Part shown: positions 32,882 to 62,624 of the stretch, in pieces
How positions within the stretch are numbered: position 1 is the stretch's first letter
Layout of the letters: every line of letters begins with the position of its first letter
Assembly (NCBI GenBank): GCA_902727895.1
Contig: CACVAP010000083.1
Coordinates: 1-64,000, forward strand
Reading direction: 5' to 3'
DNA from: an uncultured Sulfurovum sp.
Lineage (GTDB): Bacteria > Campylobacterota > Campylobacteria > Campylobacterales > Sulfurovaceae
Length of the DNA: 64,000 nt
The notes under the pieces: generated by a model
The model's input: the letters and a program-made list of their open reading frames with translations, nothing else
The model's database searches: none
What the model was told of the DNA's origin: nothing
Position numbers and translations under genes: made by a program

Positions 32882-32902
32882 TTGTTAAAAAGTTGTTAAA
32901 AA

Positions 32903-33736
32903 TTATTTAGCGTCTTTAGCTGTGTCTGAAGCTGAGTCAACAGCTTTGTCAGATACATCAGATGCATTGTCAGAAATAGTTTTTATAGCAGTTCCAGTTT
33001 CTGTAGTTGCATCTTTAGCAGTAGCTGAAGCTTCTGTTGTTGCAGTTTTAGCAACATCGTTAGCTGATGTAGTTGCAGTTTTTACAGAATCGTTAGCTGA
33101 TGTAGTTGCATCTTTAGCAGTAGCTGAAGCTTCTGTTGTTGCAGTTTTTACAGAATCAGTTGCAGAATCAGTTGCAGATTTTACAGATGCTGTAGCATCA
33201 GTAGAAGCTGTTTTAGCAGTTGCAGTTGCATCATTAGAAATAGTTGTTACATTTTTAGAAGCTTCTGTAGAAACAGTAGTTACGTTTTTAGTAGCATCAG
33301 AAGAAAGCGTTTTAGTTGCATCATTAGCATCTTTAGAAACAGCTACTGAAGCGTCTTTCATATCTTTAGAAGCAATAGTTGCACCATCTTTAATATCTTT
33401 AGTAGTATTAGTAACAGTATCTTTTGAATCTTCAGCTAATTCAACTACAGAATCTCTAGTATCTTTAGAAGTTGAAACTTCTGCAGTTTTTAAATCATCA
33501 GAAACTTTTACTGAAGAATCTTTAACATCAGAACTTACATTAGTAATTGTTCTCTCAGCAGATTTTGAAGTTTCTACAGCACCGTCTTTTAATGATCCAA
33601 TAGAATCTTTAGCATCTTTACTCATAGAAGTAGCAGCTTCTTTCATGTCTTTAAACATGTCTCCAACTGAGAATTCTGCTGAAGCTGTTGTAATCATTGT
33701 TGCTGTAATTGCTGAAATTAGTGTAATTTTTGTCAT
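32903..33736 (-). CDS. Exported LEA-like 11-mer repeat protein, copy 1
   Basis: The 277-residue protein has a signal peptide (cleavage after TASA, residue 20) and a mature part made almost only of Ala, Thr, Ser, Asp, Lys and Val, without Cys, Trp or Tyr. From about 165 to 252 it runs in 11-residue units, for example TATTEASATAK and DATTSANDSVK. This period is typical of group 3 LEA proteins and other amphipathic 11/3 helices that shield proteins or membranes under drying, freezing or salt stress. That role is inferred. Residues 21-60 (FKDMKEAATSMSKD) are shared with the paralogues. The open frame on the opposite strand is a by-product of the repeats. Confidence 0.82.
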   Translation of the reverse strand: MTKITLISAITATMITTASAEFSVGDMFKDMKEAATSMSKDAKDSIGSLKDGAVETSKSAERTITNVSSDVKDSSVKVSDDLKTAEVSTSKDTRDSVVELAEDSKDTVTNTTKDIKDGATIASKDMKDASVAVSKDANDATKTLSSDATKNVTTVSTEASKNVTTISNDATATAKTASTDATASVKSATDSATDSVKTATTEASATAKDATTSANDSVKTATTSANDVAKTATTEASATAKDATTETGTAIKTISDNASDVSDKAVDSASDTAKDAK

Positions 33737-33800
33737 TTTTTTGTCCTTGTTTTTTATGTTTTTATTGGCTCGGGAATTCTAGCCATCTTAGCTTTATTTA

Positions 33801-33829
33801 AAACTTAAAATAATATAAATTTTAAGTTT
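33801..33829. repeat. 10-bp perfect inverted repeat upstream of LEA-like copy 1
   Basis: AAACTTAAAA (33801-33810) and TTTTAAGTTT (33820-33829), 9-nt loop, lie in the 133-nt gap before copy 1. A degenerate version of the same sequence lies upstream of copy 2. It may be an operator or a weak terminator for copy 2. Confidence 0.4.
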
Positions 33830-33869
33830 CAAAGTCTACCTGTCCTAAATACTCTCAATTAAAAAGTAA

Positions 33870-34703
33870 TTATTTAACGTCTTTTGCTGTGTTACTTACA
33901 TTTTCTGTAGCTGTTGTTGATGCATCAGATGCATTGTCAGAAATAGTTTTTACAACTTCACTGCTTTCTGTTGTTGCAGTTTTAGCAGCATCATTAGCAG
34001 AAGTAGTTGCAGTTTTCATACTGTCATTAGCAGAAGTAGTTGCAGTTTTAGTAGCATCGTTAGCAGCAGTAGTTGCTTCTTTAGCAGTAGCAGAAGCTTC
34101 TGTAGTTGCAGTTTTTACAGAATCAGTTGCAGAATCAGTTGCAGATTTTAGAGAATCTCTTACATCTGTAGATACTGTGCTAGCTGAAGCATTTAAATCA
34201 GAAGAAACTGTTTTTACTGCTGATGATGCATCATTAGTAATAGTAGTAACATTCTTAGTTGTGTCAGAAGAAACTGTTTTAGCTGTTGCAACTGCATCTG
34301 TAGAAAGTGATGTACCAGTTTCTTTCATATCTTTAGTAGCAATAGTTGCAGAATCTTTAAGATCAGTTGTTGTAGACTTCATAGAGTCTTTTGTATCATC
34401 AGCTAAATCAGTTGCTGTACCAGTTAAATCTTTAGTAGTATTCACTTCTGCTGTTTTAAGATCATCAGAAACTTTTACAGATACATCTTTAACATCAGCA
34501 CTTACGTTAGTGATTGTTCTTTCAGCAGATTTTGACGTCTCTACTGCACCATCTTTAACAGACCCGATAGAATCTTTCATATCTTTACTCATAGAAGTTG
34601 AAGCTTCTTTCATATCTTTAAACATATCTCCAAAAGAGAAATCAGCAGAAGCTGTAGTAATCATCGCAGCTGTGATTGCTGAAATTAATGTAATTTTTGT
34701 CAT
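33870..34703 (-). CDS. Exported LEA-like 11-mer repeat protein, copy 2 (diverged)
   Basis: Also 277 residues with the same signal peptide and the same N-terminal segment (DMFKDMKE...SMSKD), but the middle differs from copies 1 and 3 (TGTATDLADDTKDSMKST). The C-terminal 11-mers are ordered differently and continue to VSNTAKDVK. Composition again lacks Cys, Trp and Tyr. It keeps the same length as its neighbours despite divergence, which suggests that length matters. The upstream region resembles that of copy 1, so the two genes may share control. Confidence 0.82.
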   Translation of the reverse strand: MTKITLISAITAAMITTASADFSFGDMFKDMKEASTSMSKDMKDSIGSVKDGAVETSKSAERTITNVSADVKDVSVKVSDDLKTAEVNTTKDLTGTATDLADDTKDSMKSTTTDLKDSATIATKDMKETGTSLSTDAVATAKTVSSDTTKNVTTITNDASSAVKTVSSDLNASASTVSTDVRDSLKSATDSATDSVKTATTEASATAKEATTAANDATKTATTSANDSMKTATTSANDAAKTATTESSEVVKTISDNASDASTTATENVSNTAKDVK

Positions 34704-34872
34704 CTTAAATCCTCGTGTCTATTAATTTTTTGAATTATAACCTCACCTTTATTTAGAATAACTTAAAATTATAAATTTTATTATTAAAAGTAATAACTGA
34801 TAATAATTATCTTAATTAAGAATAGAATATAATAATTTATTAAAATGTATTTAAGGGAAATAAAAGGAGAGT

Positions 34873-34897
34873 AAAGCCACCAAGAAGTGGTAGCTTT
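34873..34897 (-). terminator. Likely terminator of LEA-like copy 3
   Basis: On the minus strand a 9-bp stem with one mismatch (AAAGCCACC 34873-34881 / GGTAGCTTT 34889-34897). It is related in sequence to the terminator of copy 1 and followed by a T-rich stretch. Confidence 0.45.
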
Positions 34898-34920
34898 AAT
34901 TTAAGAAGAGTACTTAAAAA

Positions 34921-35754
34921 TTATTTAGCGTCTTTAGCTGTGTCTGAAGCTGAGTCAACAGCTTTGTCAGATACATCAGATGCATTGTCAGAAATAGTTT
35001 TTATAGCAGTTCCAGTTTCTGTAGTTGCATCTTTAGCAGTAGCTGAAGCTTCTGTTGTTGCAGTTTTAGCAACATCGTTAGCTGATGTAGTTGCAGTTTT
35101 TACAGAATCGTTAGCTGATGTAGTTGCATCTTTAGCAGTAGCTGAAGCTTCTGTTGTTGCAGTTTTTACAGAATCAGTTGCAGAATCAGTTGCAGATTTT
35201 ACAGATGCTGTAGCATCAGTAGAAGCTGTTTTAGCAGTTGCAGTTGCATCATTAGAAATAGTTGTTACATTTTTAGAAGCTTCTGTAGAAACAGTAGTTA
35301 CGTTTTTAGTAGCATCAGAAGAAAGCGTTTTAGTTGCATCATTAGCATCTTTAGAAACAGCTACTGAAGCGTCTTTCATATCTTTAGAAGCAATAGTTGC
35401 ACCATCTTTAATATCTTTAGTAGTATTAGTAACAGTATCTTTTGAATCTTCAGCTAATTCAACTACAGAGTCTCTAGTATCTTTAGAAGTTGAAACTTCT
35501 GCAGTTTTTAAATCATCAGAAACTTTTACTGAAGAATCTTTAACATCAGAACTTACATTAGTAACTGTTCTCTCAGCAGATTTTGAAGTTTCAACAACAC
35601 CATCTTTAACTGAACCAACTGAATCTTTAGCATCTTTACTCATAGAAGTCGCAGCTTCTTTCATGTCTTTAAACATGTCTCCAAAAGAGAACTCAGCAGA
35701 GGCTGTTGTTAATAATGCAGCAGTTAATGCACTTAAAATTATAATTTTTTTCAT
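34921..35754 (-). CDS. Exported LEA-like 11-mer repeat protein, copy 3
   Basis: The 277-residue protein is identical to copy 1 from about residue 65 to the end, while its first 64 residues differ at several places (MKKIIILSALTAALLTTASA, then DSVGSVKDGVVETS). At DNA level the 3' three quarters of the two genes match except for about one base, whereas the middle gene is diverged. That points to gene conversion or a recent copy event. Function as for copy 1. Confidence 0.82.
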   Translation of the reverse strand: MKKIIILSALTAALLTTASAEFSFGDMFKDMKEAATSMSKDAKDSVGSVKDGVVETSKSAERTVTNVSSDVKDSSVKVSDDLKTAEVSTSKDTRDSVVELAEDSKDTVTNTTKDIKDGATIASKDMKDASVAVSKDANDATKTLSSDATKNVTTVSTEASKNVTTISNDATATAKTASTDATASVKSATDSATDSVKTATTEASATAKDATTSANDSVKTATTSANDVAKTATTEASATAKDATTETGTAIKTISDNASDVSDKAVDSASDTAKDAK

Positions 35755-35925
35755 GGGTGTATCCTTGTATATAGTTATAATGAAATTATATTCTATATTA
35801 TGTAAATTGATACTTAATAATCATAAAATAAAATAATCAAACATTATAGTGTTTATAAAAGTAATTTAATAAACATACAAGTAATAAAAGTAAACATAAA
35901 AGTTATCTGCTTAACAATAATCTGT

Positions 35926-56349: not shown

Positions 56350-56536
56350 TAGTAGTGTTTCCTTAAACAAATGAGTTTAGTTATTACCATAAAGTAATAT
56401 TTTTTGGTATTTTAGCTAAATATTGTATAAATGATGATTTACTTCTATATAAACTACAATAATTCCTAAGTAAGTCATATTTTAACAAAAAACTAGTTCT
56501 ATTAGTAGCTTGAAATATTAACATCATACATTTCAC

Positions 56537-58699
56537 TTATCTATTTTTTAACATACTAGATAAATAATCCTCTTTAAAATTATCTCGACCTTTTATATTA
56601 TTAAAATAGGTTCTAGCTTTAATAAACTCATAAATATCTTCTTCTCTTTTAATTCTAAATAAAAGATTAATCATATTCTCATAATGGTACTTTCCATAAT
56701 GATTAATTTCATCCTGATTATCATCGTCCCTTACTGCTTCAAGCGCATATTCATATGAAAATAAATAAGAAGCATATTCATAAAGAAAAATATCACTTGC
56801 TTTAATACTCTCATGAGATGAAAGATGAACAACTCTTTCTAATATATTAATAGGTTTCTCTAATTTGTTTATAATAAGGGTTGATAAAAAACTAACAATA
56901 AAACTTGTATTAGTTATAATCATTTTATCATTTCCGTCTAAGACATACATAAAGTCTATCTCTAGCTTTTTATTCATATACTTTTTTCTAAAGTTTTTTA
57001 TTAAATCTTCTAATACAAAATCTCTTCCGTTTAAGCCTTTAATAATTATTGATGTCTCACCACTTAATTCAATATCTCTAGAAAATTTATCTAAATAGTC
57101 TACTGTCCTAAAGAATGATGATTTATCAGATTTGAGTATATTTAAATCAAAATCGTTTAAATTTGTAAAGATATATAATCCATATCCAACATATTGAATA
57201 CCATCAATCTGGTTTGTATTTTGTTTACCAATATCAAAGGGAATATCTTCTTCAATAATAGATTTATTAATCAAACCCAAACCATATTTTTGACTTAATT
57301 GACCATATCGTATCACAGCGTTAATAATCATCAAATCTTTAAATCTCACATATCTATATTGTGCTTCATGACATAAACTATGAATAATCTCATTATAATA
57401 CTTAACACTATTTGAAAGAAAGTTAGCTATATCTTTAGCGTTAAAATCTTTTCTATGATTAGAGAAACTATAATAGATAAATGCTATCTGTAATTTAATA
57501 GAAAATACAGCTGATTGCTCAAGTTTTGGATGAGACTTTAAATAACTTTCTAAAAATTTAATTTCTTTTTCTAAATCAAATATATAGTCTATTCTTGCTA
57601 TTTCATGATGTTTTAGTTTTATTTCTAATTTTCTTATCATCTCAACTGATTTATTAAAAACTAACTGTGTTTCTTTATCTGTTTCCAGAGTTCTTGATAT
57701 AAAACCATATCCTTCTTTCATATCATCCTGATATACATACTGTTCAGTTTTAACCTGTAACTTTTGAAACTGCTCCTCTATACTAGATAAATTATCTGAT
57801 AACATTTTCCAAAGTACCGTAATTTCTTGAGACTTACCCCTTCCCTTTGCTAAAATATCATAGCTTTTTTCATGTTCCATTTTTGCCCATATATTTTGGA
57901 AACTTGTTTGTATTTGAATTTCAATATTAAATACTTGGTGATATTCATTTAATAACTTTGAAGAATCACTTATTTCAATATTAGAAAAACTTGTAATATC
58001 TTTAGGCAATATAGAAGACTTAGATTTTTTTATAAATTCTGCATCAAATGCTGGGTTCCAGTAAGTCCTATCACAATGAAGTCCTTTATATCCACTGTCT
58101 CTATCAATACTATAAAAACCGTGAGATAAATGATCATCTGTTCGATTTGGAATTTTAAAAAAATGATATAAAGCACGAGCCAACCATTCTGCTTGATAGG
58201 GATATGCACAAATAAATTGGATTCCAATTAAGTCATGAAGTAATCCTCCTCTTAAAAAAACCTTTGTAGGGTCTTGTACTTTTTGTATGTTATTAAATCC
58301 ATTTTTTACTAATTTTTTAATCACACTATCAGCATGTTTATAACGAATCTTAATTTCTTTAATACCCGAATATTTTAAAATATTAATTGCTTCATTATCT
58401 AGAGAAGAATGAATAAAATATCCTAAAACAGCTTCAACATATCTAGGGAGAATACCATTAGGCGTATTACTTATGTAGTCGTTAATAACTTCCTCTGTTA
58501 CTCCAGTTAGTTGATTATATTCATACATACAAGCAACTACATATTGTTTTAAAGTTGCTAAAGTTTTTTTCATTTTTTTTTCTGAACCATTAGCAATATA
58601 CAAATTCTGAATAGCACTATCAATTAAGAACAATATCTCCCCATTATTAGGATATCTCTTTTTAGGAGTAAAGTGATGTATATTTATATACTGTTGCAT
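56537..58699 (-). CDS. RelA/SpoT-core protein paired with a TIR-NACHT gene
   Basis: The 720-residue protein has a RelA/SpoT nucleotidyltransferase-like core at about 113-285: KIRYKHADSVIKKL (substrate loop region), LHDLIGIQFI (155-162), SGYKGLHCDRTYW (202-214) and NIEIQIQTSFQNIWAKMEHEKSYDI (258-282). The usual DxxGxR and EIQIRT arginines are Gln here (DLIGIQ, EIQIQT), so the activity may be altered. The remainder (about 290-720) is helical with no domain that I recognise. It lies 39 nt downstream of the TIR-NACHT gene, with its own possible -10 (58724-58729) and AAAGGACTT ribosome site. Alarmone, pyrophosphotransferase or tRNA-modifying activity are options. Confidence 0.72.
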   Translation of the reverse strand: MQQYINIHHFTPKKRYPNNGEILFLIDSAIQNLYIANGSEKKMKKTLATLKQYVVACMYEYNQLTGVTEEVINDYISNTPNGILPRYVEAVLGYFIHSSLDNEAINILKYSGIKEIKIRYKHADSVIKKLVKNGFNNIQKVQDPTKVFLRGGLLHDLIGIQFICAYPYQAEWLARALYHFFKIPNRTDDHLSHGFYSIDRDSGYKGLHCDRTYWNPAFDAEFIKKSKSSILPKDITSFSNIEISDSSKLLNEYHQVFNIEIQIQTSFQNIWAKMEHEKSYDILAKGRGKSQEITVLWKMLSDNLSSIEEQFQKLQVKTEQYVYQDDMKEGYGFISRTLETDKETQLVFNKSVEMIRKLEIKLKHHEIARIDYIFDLEKEIKFLESYLKSHPKLEQSAVFSIKLQIAFIYYSFSNHRKDFNAKDIANFLSNSVKYYNEIIHSLCHEAQYRYVRFKDLMIINAVIRYGQLSQKYGLGLINKSIIEEDIPFDIGKQNTNQIDGIQYVGYGLYIFTNLNDFDLNILKSDKSSFFRTVDYLDKFSRDIELSGETSIIIKGLNGRDFVLEDLIKNFRKKYMNKKLEIDFMYVLDGNDKMIITNTSFIVSFLSTLIINKLEKPINILERVVHLSSHESIKASDIFLYEYASYLFSYEYALEAVRDDDNQDEINHYGKYHYENMINLLFRIKREEDIYEFIKARTYFNNIKGRDNFKEDYLSSMLKNR

Positions 58700-58723
58700 G
58701 AAGAAGTCCTTTTTAATAATCTT

Positions 58724-58729
58724 ATTATA
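58724..58729 (-). promoter_or_regulatory. -10 hexamer between the TIR-NACHT and RelA-like genes
   Basis: On the minus strand TATAAT lies 24 nt before the RelA-like ATG. The second gene may have its own promoter in addition to read-through. Confidence 0.35.
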
Positions 58730-58738
58730 TCAACATAT

Positions 58739-61573
58739 TTAGAAAACATCTATACTACAATTTCCTATATATTCTACATTCTCCATAATTAAAGTTTTAT
58801 TGTTTCTAAAAACTAATAAAGAATTATCAAAAAGGACATCAGAAAAATTAATTTCTTCAAAAGAAGTAAGAAATAACTTTGATTTATAAAATTTAGATTT
58901 AGAAAAATCAATATATTTTAAATCAGCTTCTTGAAATGTAACATTTTTAAAAGTAGAAGCATGAAAAAGTAAATAGCTATTTTTTCTACCATAAAACTTT
59001 CGTTTTGAAAAATCTAAATCTTCTAAATAAAAATTATTATTAATATCTATATGAAACTCTAAGTTATGCGCTATTATATAAGATTCAAAGGCAAAATGTG
59101 CTGAGTGTAAAATAAGCTCATTGTAATGATTCATTAATTTTATGCTATTAATATCTCTTTTCCAAAGCATCACAAAAAATTCTATTGTTTCTATAGATGG
59201 TGTATTTATTGGAAATTTACTAAACTCTCTATTTTCAAAAGCTTTAAATAGATATTGAGCTAAGAAAAATTCTTGTAAGGAAGTGTGTGAGAAGCTAAAT
59301 ATATTAGTGTTAGGTCTAACCATAAAAGTAGCACCTCGCAAATCAGATTTTAACTTTTCTCTACTTTCATTTTTGTATTCTTCTGCTATATTTGGATTAG
59401 AATACATCCAGTTTGTAAACCATTCATCAAGTTTAGGATATTCTAATGTTCGAGCTCCTTGCCCCCACATATAAGCAGAAAGTTCTTGCATAATAAGTGG
59501 TTTATGTATTTTTGATAGAGTGTGTTTTCCACTATCTCTATTTAATGATGATTCAATAATTCCTAAATATATATCAGCAGAGTTAACCTCTTTACCTTCT
59601 CTAATTGCTTCTTCTAGTTCTCGTATTTGTAGAGTAATCAGTTTTAAAGAATATGGTCTTTGGCTTATCTCTTCTAAATTATGAATAGTAGTTACAACTT
59701 CTTTAAAAATTGAAATATCTATATCATTTTTGACACAATATTCTTCTATTTGATTCCATGTAAAAGGAAGTAGTTCCAAACTCATAAAATCTTTACTTTG
59801 AATTCGTTCTCTATCTTGACCACTAAGCATAGAAAATTGTTCTTGTATAGTTCTAAAGTAATGTGTTCTACAAGAAAAAAGTATTTTATTGTTCTGATTT
59901 AAAAGAACTACATTTTTTAACTCTCTGATAAAAGAATTAACTCTTTTATCATTATTCAAGTGAACTGTCACTTCATCTAAGCCATCAAAAAGAATAAAAG
60001 CTTTTCCTTTTTTTATAATTTGAAAAATTATTGAAACACTCATATCTTTTTTAAATTGATTTAAAGACTTTCTAACAACAATGTCAATAATCTCTTTCCA
60101 GTCAAACTCTTTATTTATAGCTTCGCTAGAGGCAAAATGTCTTAAATCTAAATAAATAGGATTTAATGTTGTATCTTCTTCTTGTAGTTCTAAAGCTATT
60201 TTCATACAACTCCAAGTTTTTCCCATACCTGAATCACCTAATAAAGCAAAATATTGGCTCATATTCTTTTTATTATTCAAAAGTTTTATCTTTTCAAGAT
60301 GATTTTTTTGTTCTTTATTTAAATTTTTTAACCTTGAAATAGATTTGTTTTCCAATACATTTAACTTGTCTAAAGAAATCTTATTATTTTTGTTAAAGTT
60401 CATATAAAATTCAATCTCTTGATAGTTAAAACCCCTAAGAGTTGGTTCTTTAACTATGTAAGACCATTTTATTTTTTTTAGTTTTTCAAGAAATATAATT
60501 AAACTTTGATTATTCTTTCGAATGTTTTGTTTTATTTGTATTAGTTCTCTCTCCTCTTCTCTTAGTCTCATAAGACCTGGTTGTCTCTCTATTTTTGATA
60601 TTTCTGTATAACTATCATTTACAACAATCCTACTCCACTCTTTTATCTCTTTTACTACATCAATTCCAAGTTTAGCTTTTGTAGGAATAAAGTTTTCATC
60701 ATCAATTCCAAGTTTAGCTTTTGTAGGAATAAAGTTTTCATCTACTTCACTTACTTCATCGATATTTTGTAAATTTTCAATGGTTGATTTATAAGAAACC
60801 TGTTGCTTCTCAATTTGTTTAAATATCTCACTAACTAATCCTCCAATAAACTCTTTTCTATCATGAAGCTCCATAAAGCTCCTATCTTCATAAGAAAAAA
60901 TAAGCGTTTCATCATTAATATAATTCAATTTTTTTATTGCATTATTTTTATGATTAATAAAAAGAGGAATAGAAACCTTTGTCTTACTGATTTCACTACT
61001 ACGCATTTCTAAAAAGTGAGGTAGCTCATGTTCTACAATAAACTGACTCTCAAAGTTTTCACTAACCATTAAAAGCCCAAAGTCACACTCTTCTATAGCT
61101 TCTTGAATATTTCCTTTAAAATTCTCTCCAGAAATAAGATTTTGCTCATCTTTCCAAAAAGTAAAAGGATAAGGAGTTTTTTCTAGTTCAGAAATAAGTA
61201 GTTCAACATCTTTTTTATCTTTTCTTGAATAAGAAACAAAAAATATTATCTCCTCTTCGCTCTTACCTAAGGTAGGGATAAATTCATCTTCTCTTAATGC
61301 ATGGGTAAAGTCTAATTGAGACTCTTTATATAACTTCTTTTCATTTTCTATAATCGTAAAGTTCAATTCATTAGTAGGATTAGAAATAAGCTTTATATCT
61401 ATATTTTGTTTAGTAGCCAAAGCATTAAAATCATTAGAAAACTCTTCAAAAGAAGTCTCGATAAGGTATTCTAATTCTTCTATTGAATATTCTTCATCAT
61501 TATATTGAGATTGAAATGAACTAATTTTTCTTTTTAAAGAAATATCTGCTAATTGTTTTAATGCTTTAATCAT
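58739..61573 (-). CDS. TIR-NACHT STAND ATPase with pentapeptide-like C terminus
   Basis: The 944-residue protein has five parts. Residues 1-100 are an unassigned helical N-terminal region. About 108-250 is a TIR domain (FFVSYSRKDKKDV, FWKDEQNLISGENF, and EHELPHF with the candidate catalytic Glu183). About 280-305 is a duplicated 14-residue linker. A NACHT ATPase follows (Walker A GDSGMGKTW at 446-454, Walker B AFILFDGLDEV at about 525-535). The C-terminal region (about 850-944) has DLDFSKRKF- and DLKYIDFSKSKF-type pentapeptide-like repeats. TIR domains cleave NAD+ in many defence systems, and NACHT proteins act as sensors. An abortive-infection role is inferred. Confidence 0.9.
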   Translation of the reverse strand: MIKALKQLADISLKRKISSFQSQYNDEEYSIEELEYLIETSFEEFSNDFNALATKQNIDIKLISNPTNELNFTIIENEKKLYKESQLDFTHALREDEFIPTLGKSEEEIIFFVSYSRKDKKDVELLISELEKTPYPFTFWKDEQNLISGENFKGNIQEAIEECDFGLLMVSENFESQFIVEHELPHFLEMRSSEISKTKVSIPLFINHKNNAIKKLNYINDETLIFSYEDRSFMELHDRKEFIGGLVSEIFKQIEKQQVSYKSTIENLQNIDEVSEVDENFIPTKAKLGIDDENFIPTKAKLGIDVVKEIKEWSRIVVNDSYTEISKIERQPGLMRLREEERELIQIKQNIRKNNQSLIIFLEKLKKIKWSYIVKEPTLRGFNYQEIEFYMNFNKNNKISLDKLNVLENKSISRLKNLNKEQKNHLEKIKLLNNKKNMSQYFALLGDSGMGKTWSCMKIALELQEEDTTLNPIYLDLRHFASSEAINKEFDWKEIIDIVVRKSLNQFKKDMSVSIIFQIIKKGKAFILFDGLDEVTVHLNNDKRVNSFIRELKNVVLLNQNNKILFSCRTHYFRTIQEQFSMLSGQDRERIQSKDFMSLELLPFTWNQIEEYCVKNDIDISIFKEVVTTIHNLEEISQRPYSLKLITLQIRELEEAIREGKEVNSADIYLGIIESSLNRDSGKHTLSKIHKPLIMQELSAYMWGQGARTLEYPKLDEWFTNWMYSNPNIAEEYKNESREKLKSDLRGATFMVRPNTNIFSFSHTSLQEFFLAQYLFKAFENREFSKFPINTPSIETIEFFVMLWKRDINSIKLMNHYNELILHSAHFAFESYIIAHNLEFHIDINNNFYLEDLDFSKRKFYGRKNSYLLFHASTFKNVTFQEADLKYIDFSKSKFYKSKLFLTSFEEINFSDVLFDNSLLVFRNNKTLIMENVEYIGNCSIDVF
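60659..60742 (-). repeat. Exact 42-bp tandem duplication in the TIR-NACHT linker
   Basis: Two copies (60659-60700 and 60701-60742) are identical at all 42 bases and keep the frame, giving DENFIPTKAKLGID twice between the TIR and NACHT domains. Confidence 0.9.
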
Positions 61574-61689
61574 TAGTAATTTCTTCCTTTATTTTCTAAC
61601 GCTTTATCAAGCCATGAACTCGATGCTTCATCATCGTCTGAGTAGCTTATAAATGCTTTATAGTGTTTGTTGTCTCTCTCTTTCCCCAT
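61573..61689 (-). pseudogene. Truncated TIR-like micro-ORF upstream of the TIR-NACHT gene
   Basis: A 38-codon frame begins ATG GGG and reads KHYKAFISYSDDDEASSSW, then LDKALENKGRNY. Positions 10-30 match the first strand and helix of a TIR domain (YKAFISYSxxD...WLxKALE). It has a ribosome site (AAGGGGTCACT) and ends in TAA that overlaps the ATG of the TIR-NACHT gene (TAATG). It is either the remnant of a lost TIR gene or a leader peptide coupled to the downstream gene. The first option is more likely because it is homologous to TIR starts. Confidence 0.6.
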
Positions 61690-61712
61690 AGTGACCCCTT
61701 TTTCATTACTAT

Positions 61713-61718
61713 ATTATA
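61713..61718 (-). promoter_or_regulatory. -10 element of the TIR remnant/TIR-NACHT transcription unit
   Basis: On the minus strand TATAAT, 23 nt before the micro-ORF ATG. It shares the gap with the divergent MNT promoter. Confidence 0.5.
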
Positions 61719-61735
61719 GCAAAATGCTTTTATGG

Positions 61736-61741
61736 TATAAT
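61736..61741 (+). promoter_or_regulatory. -10 element of the MNT gene
   Basis: TATAAT, only 6 nt before the likely ATG at 61748, so the mRNA may be leaderless. Confidence 0.45.
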
Positions 61742-61747
61742 AATCTT

Positions 61748-62059
61748 ATGAACCAAACAACCATACTCAACTACCTTAGTACTGTAAAAGATAAATATCA
61801 AGAAGAAGGACTTGTTATAAAAGCTCTTTTTGGCTCATACTCTCGTAATGAAGCCAATGCTCAAAGTGATGTAGATATTTTAGTAGAAGCCATGCCTGAA
61901 TTTTCAGAAAAATATGGTTTTGGTGCAATTGCAAGACTTCGTGAAATTCAAAGTGAGATAAGTCATGCACTAGGAGGAATCTCCATAGATTTTGCAGATA
62001 TTTCAGGTATGGGAAAAACAGCTAAAAAATTCATTATAGATCGAGCTATCTATGTCTAA
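61748..62059 (+). CDS. MNT-type minimal nucleotidyltransferase
   Basis: From ATG 61748 the product is 103 residues: the MNT fold with LFGSYSRNEANAQSDVDILVE, which carries the GSxS and DxD (SDVDILV) signature. MNT enzymes pair with HEPN proteins as type VII toxin-antitoxin systems, where MNT adenylylates HEPN. A start further upstream would add residues inside the promoter. The next frame (62052) looks like the first 26 residues of a HEPN protein, so the partner is truncated and the pair is probably broken. Confidence 0.82.
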   Translation: MNQTTILNYLSTVKDKYQEEGLVIKALFGSYSRNEANAQSDVDILVEAMPEFSEKYGFGAIARLREIQSEISHALGGISIDFADISGMGKTAKKFIIDRAIYV

Positions 62060-62132
62060 AGAACTTATTAATAAAATCTATCTTATTTTAGAAAAAATTG
62101 AATATGTTGAAATTAACAAAGTAGTCTACTAA
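62052..62132 (+). pseudogene. Truncated HEPN-like remnant after MNT
   Basis: The 26-codon frame MSKELINKIYLILEKIEYVE... overlaps the MNT stop by 8 nt, as HEPN genes usually do. It resembles the N-terminal helix of DUF86-type HEPN proteins, but a TAA ends it. The catalytic RxxxxxH lies far downstream in a normal protein, so the RNase is lost. The identification rests on context and a short match. Confidence 0.45.
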
Positions 62133-62147
62133 AAAAGGAATATAAAT

Positions 62148-62621
62148 ATGAAATGGAAAAAATGGCTAGAAAATTGGGACATGACCTCACTAAAAATAAA
62201 AACCCCATTTTTAGATATGGAGTTCAAACCACAAGAGGCTGATAAAGCTGCTGCTTGGGATTTATATATAGAATTGCTTACAAGAATTACAACGCAACCC
62301 TTACCCAAAGAACATGGAGATGAACAAACAGCTCTTAATTCTGTCTTTGCTCTTTTTGCTTTAACGCGTGATGTATTGAAAAAACATGGAAGAGATGCAG
62401 AAGAATTTTCTAAAATAGCCATTGTAGTTTTAAATCAAGTTATTCGACCATTTACAGCCAAGTGGCATAAAGAGTCGATTGAGAGTGCATTTGAAAATGG
62501 AGATAAATGTAATGAATTCAGAGAAGAATTAAAAAAATTACAACTTATACTTGGAATTTATACTCAAATGTTATCTGACATGGCTGGGGTTGAAGACTTG
62601 ACTAGACTCGAAGATATTTAA
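62148..62621 (+). CDS. Hypothetical helical protein in the defence region
   Basis: The 157-residue protein is helical, without signal or membrane segments. I do not recognise the family, though ELLTRITTQPLPKEHGDEQTAL and VLNQVIRPFTAKWHKES look conserved-like rather than random. AAGGAATATAA precedes the ATG. It is in the same direction as the MNT gene, 15 nt after the HEPN remnant, and convergent with the cytochrome gene. Role unknown. Confidence 0.6.
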   Translation: MKWKKWLENWDMTSLKIKTPFLDMEFKPQEADKAAAWDLYIELLTRITTQPLPKEHGDEQTALNSVFALFALTRDVLKKHGRDAEEFSKIAIVVLNQVIRPFTAKWHKESIESAFENGDKCNEFREELKKLQLILGIYTQMLSDMAGVEDLTRLEDI

Positions 62622-62624
62622 ACT

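Follow-up and report, generated by a model that had tools for sequence, protein, structure and literature searches.

Genes and features of the island

The window is a stretch of 64,000 nucleotides from an uncultured Sulfurovum sp. Towards one end of it, a gene encoding a TIR-NACHT protein of 944 amino acids (P0002) is followed, after a gap of 39 nt, by a gene on the same strand encoding a RelA/SpoT-fold protein of 720 amino acids (P0001; Table 1). An initial annotation had given the lengths and the spacing exactly, and had seen in the pair a candidate defence operon. Both ORFs are as it described them, but the outer edge that it set, at position 61689, marks where another ORF, of 38 aa, starts, not the 944-aa gene.

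Table 1. Features at the locus, with positions in the window
Feature	Position	Strand	Remarks
Inserted segment (ends approximate)	56426..62622		Upstream of metG; between metG and cytochrome-like/histidine-kinase genes
P0001, RelA/SpoT-fold protein, 720 aa	56537..58699	-	ORF list, Pfam, AlphaFold, Foldseek, active-site mapping
TGATATAAT, putative extended -10 promoter box	58724..58732	-	Perfect; within the 39-nt gap, 24 nt ahead of the start codon of P0001
P0002, TIR-NACHT-pentapeptide protein, 944 aa	58739..61573	-	ORF list, Pfam, solved TIR matches, relatives
38-aa ORF like a TIR N-terminus (MGKERDNKHYKAFISYSDDDEASSSWLDKALENKGRNY)	61574..61690	-	Stop overlaps P0002 start (TAATG); TIR_2 E=0.0088, below cut-off
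TGCTATAAT, extended -10 box	61713..61721	-	22 nt before the 38-aa ORF
MntA-like nucleotidyltransferase	61748..62059	+	Divergent from P0002; NTP_transf_2 E=3.1e-8; MntA_antitoxin 34.5 bits, cut-off 60
P0004, 157 aa, last gene of the insertion	62148..62621	+	No family match

Both genes lie in a segment of about 6.2 kb that is missing at this site from three sister genomes (G009, G010, G021). It is judged to be an insertion because in those genomes metG directly adjoins the genes that are found here from about 62623 onward. Its ends showed no clear terminal repeats such as a mobile element would have. The genes for P0001 and P0002 have GC contents of 26.0 and 26.1%, the MntA-like gene and P0004 34%, and the window 32%. 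After the MntA-like gene, where HepT would be expected, there is a stub of 26 codons, and I take the two together (61748-62131, plus strand) to be a decayed MntA-HepT-like pair. The 38-aa ORF, absent from the relatives of P0002 that were fetched, is probably the relic of another TIR gene, or perhaps a translated leader. Given a MntA-like gene with a stub of HepT and a fragment of TIR, the island has the look of a place where genes of the defence type turn over.

Elsewhere in the window (32888-35836), three tandem units of about 1 kb resemble one another. They contain repeats of 33 nt, and both of their strands have long ORFs; Pfam gave no match for the one on the minus strand of the first unit.

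The TIR-NACHT protein

P0002 contains a TIR domain (residues 111-220), a NACHT domain (442-613) and a pentapeptide-like region (870-917). The first two score above their Pfam cut-offs, TIR_2 with 49.6 bits against 28 (E=6.8e-13) and NACHT with 36.5 bits against 26.7 (E=5.6e-9), and the name TIR-NACHT that the protein was first given holds. The pentapeptide part of the name fares less well: repeats can be seen, but they are weak (E=9.4e-5, below the Pfam cut-off). Walker A and Walker B are both present. Glu183, which I take to be the catalytic-type glutamate known from TIR NADases, aligns with Glu-Leu of the solved TIR 7uxr and is kept in the relative from G177. Within the gene, in the stretch that links TIR to NACHT, a 42-nt tandem duplication (window 60651-60734) repeats DENFIPTKAKLGID.

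Relatives with the TIR-NACHT-pentapeptide arrangement are encoded in G177, G595, G042 and G479, and over its NACHT part the protein from G595 shares 49% identity with P0002. Several of them also have WD40 repeats, present in G177 and G595 and visible in G479, whereas P0002 lacks these and ends in its weak pentapeptide repeats. No relatives were found in the phages or viral contigs searched, and a search of plasmids gave distant NACHT matches only, mostly cyanobacterial. A TIR match in G307 (C1:2197905-2198264, L106) falls within a frame of about 2060 aa that has a single TGA inside it.

What might such a protein do? P0002 has a TIR effector and a NACHT ATPase in common with bacterial TIR-NACHT and bNACHT NLR-like proteins, and, less certainly, repeats at the C-terminal end. 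By analogy, it most likely functions like other NLR-like proteins of this type: infection would be sensed by its C-terminal part or by a cofactor, its NACHT domain would oligomerise with ATP, and its TIR domain would consume NAD+. It would then be a stand-alone NLR-like immune protein, following the tripartite logic of sensor, NACHT and effector that has been described (PMC12169576).

The RelA-like protein

P0001 consists of a helical N-region (residues 1-110), a synthetase core (about 111-290) and a helical C-terminal half (331-720). The Pfam family RelA_SpoT (PF04607) matches it in hmmscan with 22.7 bits (E=1.3e-4), below the cut-off of 27 bits, but the same place reaches 31.2 bits, above the cut-off, when counted with neighbouring stretches in a genome search. 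PF04607 is matched at E<0.01 by 16 of the 21 members of the P0001 family. A search of PDB sequences with P0001 alone yielded chance matches only, and with the family profile a sole match, to SAS1 (E=0.06).

Then there is the evidence of structure. An alignment of four sequences gave a poor AlphaFold model, and one of 21 sequences was used instead, giving a mean pLDDT of 77. Foldseek matched this model with a probability of 1.00 to synthetases of the SAS1/RelQ and RelP type (PDB 5dec, 5ded, 6fgk; TM 0.54-0.68 by target), 5dec being the best. It is the core that matches B. subtilis SAS1. The active-site residues are also alike. The RelA/SpoT-type core claimed at the outset, which the lack of a fold match was to have refuted, is thus borne out by a predicted fold that does match, and by the residues discussed below. 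There are differences as well. The solved chains are about 180-220 aa in length, without the large helical C-terminal half, their identity to P0001 is 12-17% over the match, and P0001 has no Arg after DxxGx. Its C-terminal half gives weak Foldseek matches to TPR proteins. Closer in length is a normal long RSH of the SpoT type, encoded elsewhere in the host (G000 contig C2), which has the same synthetase core; however, the hydrolase, TGS and ACT domains were not detected by Pfam in P0001.

The active-site residues of the toxSAS FaRel2 have been listed (PMC11782079); their mapping onto P0001 is my own, made by motif spacing. Nine of the ten positions are kept or conservatively replaced. Eight are identical: R64, K66, S70 and K74 (R119, K121, S125 and K129 in P0001) and D90, Y128, E145 and Q147 (D156, Y204, E260 and Q262). 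R77 is replaced by K132. The tenth, R95, is Q161 in P0001. Except at R95, the mapped positions are invariant in the P0001 family wherever a row covers the position.

One might suppose that P0001 is a copy in decay, or one that is catalytically dead, considering that its branch in the family tree is long and that the equivalent of R95 is not an arginine. It is too much to expect, however, that a dead copy would keep 720 codons open and every other mapped position of its active site, and the change at R95 is common to all 21 members of the family, each having Gln or Leu. I regard this reading as very improbable. Since the mapped positions are kept, the active site looks functional, with what the alignment suggests is a single change, common to the family, at the position that contacts adenine.

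P0001 is then most likely a pyrophosphotransferase that depends on ATP. Its core would take pyrophosphate from ATP and transfer it, most likely under the control of the helical regions on either side, N- and C-terminal. As the product, an alarmone is somewhat favoured, either (p)ppGpp or (p)ppApp. That the target is instead the 3' end of tRNA is an appreciably less probable alternative.

Distribution and neighbours of the P0001 family

The P0001 family was followed in three genome sets, which overlap and hold about two dozen distinct genes in total. The 397 genomes of the phylum gave four full-length members, including P0001, and the GTDB contig set gave 17 loci; of the 175 genomes of the same taxonomic family, 20 had a member, the host, G000, being the only one found in its genus. 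The records are named Sulfurovum, Sulfurovaceae, Sulfurimonadaceae, Sulfurimonas, Sulfurospirillum or Campylobacterales. No relatives were found in the plasmids, phages or viral contigs searched. Weak matches in G158, G272 and G411 were not accepted as relatives. Lengths are near 710 aa and identities to P0001 about 35-41% (46-47% over one 204-aa fragment). P0001 itself is a lone branch in the family tree, with 2.86 changes per column. The branch is so long, and its own subfamily so unsampled, that the relatives may not represent the subfamily of P0001.

The neighbours of the family are mostly housekeeping genes, and 8 of the 19 loci have the gene divergent from pta. At one locus (L009, 9797-13466) the RelA-like gene has pta-ackA on one side and, on the other, a convergent gene for a Ppx/GppA phosphatase; pta, ackA and the phosphatase were all verified by Pfam. 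The last belongs to a pppGpp-hydrolysing family, and its presence is a hint towards alarmone metabolism. Some genomes have two RelA-like genes: they are tandem copies in a Sulfurimonadaceae MAG (L013, 2836-7329), and a single Sulfurovum MAG (bin10034) has both L012 and L020.

Might P0001 by itself be a sensor and effector of the kind exemplified by CapRel? Its C-terminal half would sense a phage protein and free the core to pyrophosphorylate tRNA, which would be compatible with the independence of the two genes. CapRel SJ46 likewise has a catalytic N-part and a C-terminal regulatory part, although the C-terminal half of P0001 is much longer. Such a protein would be encoded by a single gene with a core and a large C-terminal half, as P0001 is, and the latter is indeed less conserved than the former, both within the family (0.64 compared to 0.76) and in the agreement of P0001 with the family consensus (34% compared to 52%). 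The distribution of the family is patchy, and P0001 sits on an island with defence-type genes. In other genera, however, the gene adjoins housekeeping genes such as pta-ackA, outside defence islands, and of the solved folds it is those of housekeeping synthetases, SAS1/RelQ and RelP, that come closest, rather than that of CapRel. P0001 lacks an adjoining antitoxin gene, and no small partner gene recurs beside its relatives. The YXXY motif by which toxSAS partners neutralise (PMC11782079) is not conserved in common with P0001: the alignment has no YXXY column shared by P0001 and the family. On balance, a CapRel-like role for P0001 is possible but doubtful.

One system or two neighbours

A short gap invites the view that two genes are transcribed as one. 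No terminator-like site was found between P0002 and P0001, so read-through from the first into the second is possible. Within the gap, however, lies a perfect TGATATAAT, expected there about 0.003 times per 45 nt. TGNTATAAT occurs 11 times in the window compared to 5.8 expected from shuffling, and nearly all copies are just upstream of a start codon, which is where the promoter boxes of this organism would be expected. In the family at large, 13 of the 19 genes scanned have TATAAT 15-50 nt upstream, compared to 1.1 expected from first-order Markov resampling. Judging by these motifs, P0001 likely has its own promoter in the gap, as members of its family usually do, and TGCTATAAT would be the probable promoter of the 38-aa ORF plus P0002. 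The case shows that a small distance between two genes on an island says little in favour of an operon if there is room in it for a perfect promoter box.

The initial annotation put the two genes forward as one system, and proposed that adjacent TIR-NACHT and RelA/SpoT genes be counted elsewhere. None were found in the genome sets searched. No P0002-like neighbour appears in about two dozen P0001-family loci read, and a RelA-like neighbour is absent from two of two relatives of P0002 (G595 and G479), only these having a readable 3' side. Four genomes with P0002-like matches (G177, G595, G042, G180) have no member of the P0001 family at all, and G479 has both genes on different contigs. No recognisable domain is common to the two proteins (hhalign probability 0.1; BLASTP E=3.3), and they share no adaptor domain. 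With no readable relative of either protein adjoining the other, and with P0001 likely having its own promoter, the claim of one defence operon is not supported.

There is another side to this. The genes have the same orientation and the same unusual GC content, they lie in one insertion, and there is no terminator between them, all of which speaks against independence. They might then form a two-component defence unit, in which the TIR-NACHT protein senses infection and also activates P0001, or P0001 serves as a second, independent kill switch under the same control. P0001 is unusually diverged, as would be expected after recruitment to a new role, and its active site has been kept despite the divergence. 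RelA domains have been reported among the effectors of STAND-containing conflict systems (PMC7159879), so a pairing of TIR-NACHT with RelA would not be wholly without precedent. No such pair was found in the literature searched, coverage of which was incomplete. But it is asking much of such a unit that its adjacency be conserved in none of the relatives read, that its second gene carry a promoter motif of its own and that its two proteins have no adaptor domain in common. I consider a two-component unit unlikely. There is the further point that, the subfamily of P0001 being unsampled, a recent coupling would leave no trace in the relatives read. If P0001 had recently been recruited as the partner of a TIR-NACHT protein without WD40, then one infection signal would drive both loss of NAD+ and either alarmone synthesis or pyrophosphorylation of tRNA; this too seems improbable.

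I propose that P0001 and P0002 are most likely functionally independent genes on one acquired low-GC island, because their relatives live apart and P0001 seems to have its own promoter. The proposal builds on the predicted fold, the active-site residues, the separate occurrence of the relatives, the promoter motif and the insertion. The enzymatic activities that I ascribe to the two proteins, and any role they may have in phage defence, are putative. Were the pair a true two-part immune system, a single sensor would control two ways of killing, but the evidence favours the view that the genes are neighbours. The novelty here is modest, a lineage-restricted RelA/SpoT family of long proteins with a helical C-terminal half. 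What remains useful is just that: a family of long RelA/SpoT-fold enzymes in sulfur-oxidising Campylobacterota, now provided with a residue map.
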